Part shown: positions 9,047-9,588 of the stretch, one piece after another
Layout of the letters: the number at the start of each line of letters is the position of its first letter
Numbering within the stretch: position 1 is the first letter of the stretch
Assembly (NCBI RefSeq): GCF_037031285.1
Contig: NZ_JAYEZO010000002.1
Location: 1,116,001 to 1,180,000, forward strand
Direction of reading: 5' to 3'
DNA length: 64,000 nt
Origin: Halobellus sp. LT62
GTDB lineage: Archaea; Halobacteriota; Halobacteria; Halobacteriales; Haloferacaceae
Program-made: the position numbers and the translations under genes
Notes under the pieces: generated by a model
Databases searched by the model: none
The model's input: only the letters and a program-made list of their open reading frames with translations
What the model was told of the DNA's origin: nothing

Positions 9047-9178
9047 ATGCGGGGGATGCGAATCGAACTGCTCGCTTCGCTCACGGATTCAGATGCGGGG
9101 GATGGGATGTTGAACCGAAACCAGACGTGCTCGCTCGCTACGCTCGCTGTGCGCGACTGGTAGGGTTCAAATCCCATC
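9047..9178. repeat. Degenerate copies of the tRNA-Leu 3' end (possible att scars)
   Basis: Three partial copies of the neighbouring tRNA-Leu 3' end precede the intact gene. Copy 1 (9047-9068) shares atgcgggggatg and gaac. Copy 2 (9093-9116) shares the 16-nt atgcgggggatgggat and ttgaacc. Copy 3 is inverted: gggttcaaatcccatc (9163-9178) is the exact reverse complement of 9223-9238 in the tRNA. The copies are separated by ctcgcttcgctc-type repeats. Such tRNA 3' duplications are typical attachment-site remains of integrated elements. Confidence 0.6.
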
Positions 9179-9215
9179 GTGCGAGAAATAGCGCTCGCTT
9201 CGCTCGCGCAATTTA

Positions 9216-9300
9216 TGCGGGGGATGGGATTTGAACCCACGAACCCCTACGGGAGCGGATCTTAAGTCCGCCGCCTTTGGCCTAGCTCAGCCACCCCCGC
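9216..9300 (-). tRNA. tRNA-Leu (UAA anticodon)
   Basis: The minus strand folds as a class II tRNA. The acceptor stem is GCGGGGG (from 9300) paired with CCCCCGC (ending 9217), with discriminator A at 9216. The D-arm contains TGGCTGAGCTAGGCC. The anticodon stem GCGGA/TCCGC encloses loop CTTAAGA with anticodon TAA. A long variable arm (CTCCCGTAGGGG) and the T-arm TGGGTTCAAATCCCA follow. The CCA end is not encoded. The length is 85 nt and I see no intron. The first bases after its 3' end are duplicated upstream as partial copies. Confidence 0.93.
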
Positions 9301-9588
9301 GCACACGAAAGTTCCGCGGACGGTCGGTTAGTGGTTTCGTTTTGGGAGACCGATGGACGTGTTCGAATCCACGGCGGGCTTCTCCGCGCGGGCGTCTAAT
9401 CGGACCACCCCCGCTGTCGGTGCGGCACCGACCGCCTATCAGTATCGTTTTACCCTCACTGAGAGAGCATTCAACCGAATGCTGTGCGACCACGGATCGT
9501 CGACGAAACCGCAACGGGGGTCTCTAACGCGCCGTGTGGCGCGCGCCCGTTCTGAGACGACAGTGGCGAGACTCGCCGTTGTGGCTCG
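9301..9588. other. 288-bp intergenic region between tRNA-Leu and an MFS gene
   Basis: Noncoding spacer upstream of tRNA-Leu (minus) and the MFS transporter (plus). The open frames across it lack credible starts and look like chance GC-rich frames. A T-arm-like gtgttcgaatccac at 9358-9371 does not extend to a tRNA fold. A TATA-like box for the tRNA is expected about 30 bp beyond 9300 but is not striking. Confidence 0.4.

Follow-up and report, generated by a model that had tools for sequence, protein, structure and literature searches.

Partial copies of a tRNA gene lie beside the intact tRNA-Leu(UAA) gene of Halobellus sp. LT62, and the question is what these copies are and how they came to stand there. 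The 3' ends of tRNA genes are well-known places of entry for mobile DNA, and each large element is usually pictured as leaving a single copy of the tRNA tail. The window, i.e., the whole stretch of 64,000 nt that was analyzed, carries two direct copies of the tRNA tail and one inverted copy, which a first-pass annotation had taken for the residue of several integration and excision or deletion events.

The locus behind the tRNA-Leu(UAA) gene

The direct partial copies and the perfect 16-nt inverted copy are real, as was confirmed by ARAGORN, Rfam and repeat comparison. They had been said to precede the tRNA; the gene is located on the minus strand, and therefore they follow its 3' end. From the tRNA outward, the following parts were revealed:

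9216..9300, minus strand: intact tRNA-Leu(UAA) (ARAGORN; Rfam RF00005, 52.3 bits)
9216..9237, minus strand: R0, tRNA nt 52-73, the 22-nt 3' end copied by the units (per-position identity over units; the same nt 52-73 form the Haloquadratum prophage repeat)
9176..9215, minus strand: S1, 40-nt spacer with the cap GAGCGAAGCGA at 9195 (minus) (sequence; unit parse)
9166..9175, minus strand: I, inverted T-loop/T-stem arm of 10 nt, GGGATTTGAA on the minus strand (repeat comparison; unit parse)
9115..9165, minus strand: C, type-A core CCCTACCAGTCGCGC...GAGCACGTCTGGTTTCGG with the cap GAGCGTAGCGA (core pattern; folds)
9094..9116, minus strand: R1, direct copy of tRNA nt 52-73 with one inserted T-loop base (TTCAACATCCC) (repeat comparison; unit parse)
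9069..9093, minus strand: S2, second spacer with cap, followed by neither inverted arm nor core (sequence; cap scan)
9048..9068, minus strand: R2, second direct copy, diverged (T-loop included), of a decayed unit (repeat comparison)

The locus consists of one complete and one decayed tRNA-tail hairpin unit, a unit being composed of a spacer hairpin (S), an inverted T-arm (I), a hairpin core (C) and a 22-nt copy of the tRNA 3' end (R). Both direct copies are present as annotated, but 9094-9116 contains the inserted T-loop base and the T-loop of 9048-9068 has diverged; matches to the 16-nt reference are 100% at 9093-9108 and 88% at 9047-9062. C and R1 overlap by two bases (GG), which close the former and open the latter, and neighboring tail copies are 122 and 46 bp apart. 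The inverted pair (9163-9178 and 9223-9238) is 100% complementary over 16 nt, i.e., the complementarity of arm I to the tRNA reaches across 9163-9178, with three extra pairs per side. The sequence ctcgcttcgctc, which had been regarded as filler between the copies, occurs three times (at 9070, 9133 and 9193) and is a hairpin cap; three of the five copies of the motif GARCGNAGYGA in the window fall in this array (9072, 9135 and 9195, minus strand). The minus strand of 9094-9178 folds with -39.5 kcal/mol as RNA (z -5.24) and with -21.8 as DNA (z -4.57), and in neither case was any of 200 shuffles as good. Chance repeats were ruled out by the shuffled folds and by the same arrangement behind other tRNAs.

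Two similarities were also observed outside the gene: 10 nt of the tRNA-Leu 5' end are repeated (CCACCCCCGC, plus strand) at 9405-9414 of the window, some 100 nt ahead of the start of the tRNA, and the sequence GTTCGAATCCACGGCGGG near 9360 resembles a T-arm.

The unit behind other tRNA genes

A search with this region in 60 genomes of relatives gave many secondary matches. In the two genomes considered in detail, the tRNAs followed by copies were of many kinds, and every copy ended in the tail of its own tRNA. For the window's genome we used a sample chosen independently of the unit, namely 42 tRNA genes among 44 Rfam hits, with a downstream span of 700 nt; left out were one tRNA-Asn lacking the T-loop motif used and one hit not called by ARAGORN (L179). 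A direct copy was found downstream of 17 of the 42 genes vs. upstream of one (a neighboring tRNA-Asp gene pair yields one of the 17 and the sole upstream case), and an inverted arm downstream of 22 vs. upstream of one. Either part was present at 24 genes, both at 15 and neither at 18.

The pattern GATTYGAA-N18..48-TTCRAATC was then applied to 390 genomes of the phylum with a completeness of 90 or more. Of the 103 genomes belonging to the window's order, taken to be Halobacteriales from the named relatives, 101 contain it, with up to 24 copies each, and it was revealed in 37 of 287 genomes outside the order, nearly all with a single copy; the reversed-pattern control was found in 0/103 and 9/287 genomes, respectively. 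This class of hairpin units with tRNA tails is close to universal in the haloarchaeal order concerned. At 213 distinct tRNA loci, many of them picked because of a unit, we parsed 190 units behind 137 tRNAs representing 16 isotypes and 32 anticodons; units upstream of the tRNA were present at only two of the 213. The inverted copy, earlier considered an unusual att duplication, is instead the regular left arm of a hairpin, found behind all these 16 isotypes.

The core pattern detected 75 stretches in named genomes, all from haloarchaea by title except for one 'uncultured archaeon'. In these stretches 65 of 79 core copies had a same-strand tRNA 47-504 nt upstream, and some of the other 14 were cut by the locus ends or lay behind a tRNA 3' fragment. 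A dispersed repeat independent of tRNAs is ruled out by the 65 copies; the common dispersed repeat considered earlier as another source of the copies is right in that the unit is widespread and wrong in that it is tied to tRNA 3' ends.

The edges of R are sharp: identity is 0.30 at nt 51, 0.85 at nt 52 and 0.95 at nt 73, after which it returns to the base line. The inverted arm spans tRNA nt 54 to 62-63 across units, positions 54-63 being favored by the search itself. Successive tail copies are spaced by 80-180 bp in 172 of 190 units, and 22 of the 190 right copies lack the initial TTC, mainly with a 1-base T-loop insertion. The acceptor part of R agrees with the local tRNA at 11.67 of 12 nt on average (143/190 copies perfect) vs. 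5.65 of 12 for other isotypes (none perfect). Copying from mature tRNA is disfavored because CCA follows only one of the 192 tail copies counted, a few of them twice. Decayed units were found at other loci as well (L148, L150, L163). It should be mentioned that shorter tail copies of about 12-13 nt (3' strand of the T-stem plus acceptor) occur farther out at L137, L138, L176, L045 and L055, with GGGAC or GGGAT instead of the T-loop ahead of them.

The cores belong to several families, each recurring behind different tRNAs, and type A accounts for 60 of 180 de-duplicated units. At L033, L165 and L176 the arm ends in GAG and the core starts with CAGCGAGC, forming a further family. In the cap GAxCGNAGyGA Watson-Crick pairing is kept in 118 of 122 cases (G-C 58, A-T 55, C-G 5). 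The R-Y pair of GARCGNAGYGA covaries, and the motif looks like a hairpin cap, presumably made of tandem G-A pairs, two base pairs and a GNA loop. Two pairs were counted in the 60 type-A cores: one is C-G in 53, T-A in three, G-C in two and other in two, and the next is A-T in 28, G-C in 16, C-G in one and other in 15.

Within the genus, six tRNA-Leu(UAA) loci whose shared downstream gene was judged by eye (L001, L002, L006, L007, L010, L012) differ in unit content. The window and L002 have the spacer and a mutated tail copy in common and a different core, which a deletion between two inverted arms in a two-unit ancestor resembling L002 would explain. Core pairs at least 0.97 alike number 0 of 476 within genomes across tRNAs and 8 of 14842 between genomes; cores at least 0.9 alike make up 6.6% of the 732 between-genome pairs at the same tRNA vs. 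1.6%. Since cores of different genomes are more alike at the same tRNA and show no within-genome excess, their similarity points to inheritance more than to recent spread. Recent within-genome transposition is unsupported, as cores within a genome are no more alike than those between genomes. Five further tRNA-Leu(UAA) loci of the genus (L014, L015, L016, L019, L020) have no unit in the 420 nt behind the tRNA, and their flanks are AT-richer.

Integrase-bearing elements ending in the same tRNA tails

Archaeal tyrosine recombinases duplicate an att site at the tRNA 3' end, which is 13 bp long in SNJ2 (excerpts of PMC8371274). A prophage in tRNA-Ala of Haloquadratum walsbyi C23 is accompanied by a 22-nt tRNA duplication (excerpts of PMC3119063). 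In the genome that we took as this strain, the prophage repeat GGTTCAAATCCCGGCGAGTCCA equals tRNA-Ala nt 52-73, a core-C-like sequence is located ahead of the distal copy, and an integrase gene (PF00589, PF02899) adjoins this copy. The prophage is similar to the units in the 22-nt duplication of nt 52-73 and, marginally, in the core-like sequence before the distal copy, but differs from them in its size (19.7 kb), its integrase and the absence of an inverted arm.

Relatives of this integrase were detected in 45 of 59 genomes. We fetched 30 integrase loci, 26 of them with full flanks. In eight of the 26, vs. 0.8 expected, the 250 bp upstream of the integrase match contain an inverted T-loop motif; L424 has the motif too and was omitted from this count for its short flank. 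At L414 and L417 an intact tRNA-Ala lies near the other end of the integrase. The neighborhoods of seven of the eight motif-bearing loci (all except L421) were followed up, and in all seven an intact tRNA was located 4.2-54.9 kb off, on the other side of the integrase, the identical repeats being 22-33 bp long; the distance of 54.9 kb belongs to G103, where we deal with a putative single element. Together with the prophage, this makes eight of eight integrase-bearing elements bounded by the same tRNA tail, a sample selected either because a copy lies near the integrase or because of a published report. To this extent the idea of an att residue is supported; a reading of the parts behind tRNA-Leu(UAA) as unrelated broken pieces is not. 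The repeat starts at nt 52 in G038, G056, G103 and the prophage, at nt 46 in G433, nt 54 in G224, nt 43 in G279 and nt 48 in G055.

The right ends of these elements were compared with unit cores, using 60 shuffles for each. Scores exceeded the shuffled maximum in G038 (48 vs. 33), G056 (51 vs. 38), G103 (39 vs. 26) and, narrowly, G433 (29 vs. 28); for the prophage (27) two of 60 shuffles were as good, and the ends of G224, G279 and G055 displayed no resemblance to unit cores. With the cap masked and 200 shuffles, G056 (51) and G103 (39) remained clear (0/200), G433 was thin (29, null maximum 27) and the prophage marginal (26, 4/200). The right end of G038 was rejected as core-like, its score falling to 23 with 154 of 200 shuffles as good. 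Judged by these scores, the right ends appear core-like clearly in two elements, marginally in two, via the cap only in one and not in three. Left ends like unit spacers were found in only two of eight (G038 and G433), and an inverted arm at the right end in G103 only. Next to the element of G056 there is a short second unit with the same right end as the element and with the first bases of its left end (34 vs. a null mean of 13; 0/200). This short unit, located at the tRNA-Tyr gene (L447), holds a longer, altered stretch of tRNA-Tyr, from the anticodon arm to the T-stem, ahead of the core.

As for the window's locus, this genome has seven matches to one integrase family (E<=1e-10), all outside the window; no integrase was seen between the copies at tRNA-Leu(UAA), and no integrase-bearing element was seen there. 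At L104, L111 and L115 an open frame upstream of the units reads by eye as an integrase C-terminus and is followed by a short tRNA-Ala tail, as in SNJ2-type sites.

Among the matches listed in viral and phage searches no virus-borne unit was found. Of 80 listed viral-search loci that were checked, one contains a real unit (L244), which stands beside its own tRNA-Glu; matches of 47 nt among these loci were rejected as units and appear to be long arms of tRNA-Ser. A second search led back to the contig of L244. Of the contigs from two further searches, 25 had no T-loop after the match, two read as ordinary tRNA sequence and none had a unit. The only plasmid match was to a Natronorubrum megaplasmid, whose annotation was looked at.

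Compared with archaeal att duplication as presented in the excerpts of PMC8371274, the units are similar in the direct 3'-end copy, the intact tRNA that is kept and the presence elsewhere of integrase elements between the copies. They are different in being about 120 bp long, integrase-free and stacked, in the inverted T-arm and hairpin core, and in the length of the copy (22 nt vs. 13 bp for SNJ2). In Haloferax gibbonsii LR2-5 partial tRNAs adjoin full ones, and the integrase is near the complete-tRNA end, while it is at the far end in the elements considered here; the excerpted account of that genome does not describe a hairpin unit (PMC7921747). tRNA att sites and tRNA remnants are treated in the excerpts of PMC8371274, PMC7921747 and PMC9897764. 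A literature search by title and beginning of abstract, with subscription papers and supplements outside its scope, yielded tRNA remnants in haloarchaea and not these units; prior notice of them elsewhere is possible.

Origin of the units

We consider it somewhat probable (roughly 0.55) that the units represent non-autonomous forms or footprints, about 120 bp in size, of elements mobilized by tRNA-targeting tyrosine recombinases. According to this scheme, R would be the att core of such recombinases, and S and C-R would correspond to the left and right ends, respectively, of an element that had integrated at the 3' end of the tRNA. Tandem non-autonomous units would stack behind the tRNA and could later multiply, be lost or exchange parts via short direct repeats, while the inverted arm and hairpin would belong to the element end as features of a folded site. 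The core resemblance at element ends and the match of R to the element repeats lend partial support to the att idea. The scheme also draws on the sharp edges of R at nt 52 and nt 73, the agreement of R copies with the local tRNA, the rarity of CCA behind them, the excess of inverted T-loop motifs near integrases and the varying unit content of same-genus loci. Speaking against it are the three right ends unlike cores and the loss of the G038 resemblance under masking, the spacer-like left ends in only two of eight elements, the inverted arm at a single right end, the lack of virus-borne units among the matches listed, and the core similarities that point to inheritance. Insertion of the small units by a recombinase, and a role of the hairpin in it, would be expected from the scheme; no insertion event itself was caught among the loci compared. 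Random decay of large elements is disfavored because of the tight unit length and good preservation.

Integron attC arrays consist of imperfect hairpins with an unpaired internal loop and a variable tip, repeated along the array. An imperfect hairpin with an internal loop and a variable tip was observed in the units too, but they leave no space for the usual gene cassettes (172/190 are 80-180 bp), and their arms are tRNA sequence. It may be speculated, as a rather unlikely extension, that the units form a gene-free integron-like system, in which tiny folded-site hairpin cassettes would be stacked at many tRNA 3' ends by resident tRNA-targeting tyrosine recombinases, each insertion acquiring both its tail and its inverted T-arm from the tRNA entered. 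In E. coli, the tandem repeats behind tyrT contain the tRNA 3' end and are similar to the units in standing behind a tRNA and carrying its 3' end; to our knowledge, they concern one tRNA of one bacterium and have no inverted arm. A MITE or another short mobile repeat, with element-specific terminal inverted repeats and spread through a genome, does not fit, as the inverted arm tracks the local tRNA and there is no within-genome excess of similarity.

Nearly every sampled genome of the order contains stacks of hairpin units, each about 120 bp long and bearing a copy of the tail of the tRNA ahead of it. If recombinases move them, they would constitute a minimal gene-free cassette system and a model for archaeal folded-site recombination; if they act as RNA, they would be an undescribed layer of tRNA trailer structure. 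Either reading would account for many of the partial tRNA copies of haloarchaea.

The latter reading, in which units are transcribed with the tRNA as a functional trailer and their hairpins serve 3' processing, termination or small RNAs, seems to us unlikely, though several observations speak for it. Units are situated behind and not ahead of tRNAs (137 vs. 2 of the 213 loci, partly chosen for their units), the pairing of the cap is held in 118 of 122 cases, and between genomes cores are more alike at the same tRNA. The cap in units lies on the tRNA-sense strand in a ratio of 118:18, and within 300 nt downstream of tRNAs it was counted 157 times in sense and 42 times in antisense orientation (2 vs. 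0 upstream). When sense and antisense RNA were compared, the sense strand gave the better fold in 141 of 190 units and the poorer one in 49 (p 6e-13); for cores without the rest of the unit the ratio was 104 vs. 67 (p 1.6e-4). Because of this strand bias of the cap and the sense-favored folding, strand matters for the unit, either as RNA or as single-stranded DNA. Against a trailer function, unit number and core type vary between species of the same genus, 18 of 42 tRNAs of the window's genome have neither unit part, mismatches in the arm show no wobble bias (27 for G.T and T.G vs. 32 for A.C and C.A), and the exact copying of nt 52-73 is left unexplained.

Replication slippage or template switching, in which the R repeats would arise by unequal exchange and the inverted arm by fold-back synthesis without any recombinase, is a more doubtful explanation. 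It agrees with the identical tandem units of L005, L034 and L076, with the almost wobble-free compensatory cap pairs and with the behavior of the inverted arm where the right copy is unlike the tRNA, the arm following the tRNA in eight cases, the copy in three and neither in two. However, local slippage does not explain the same core families behind different tRNAs and in different genera, nor does it fit the integrase elements that terminate in the same R.

Finally, the proposal of the first-pass annotation, in which the copies would simply be scars left to decay after several large integrations and deletions independent of one another, is improbable: integrase elements do occupy these tRNA ends and decayed units exist (R2 here and the three loci named above), but random deletion is unlikely to leave 172 of 190 units at 80-180 bp and would not be expected to give conserved cores and 143 perfect acceptor copies among 190.
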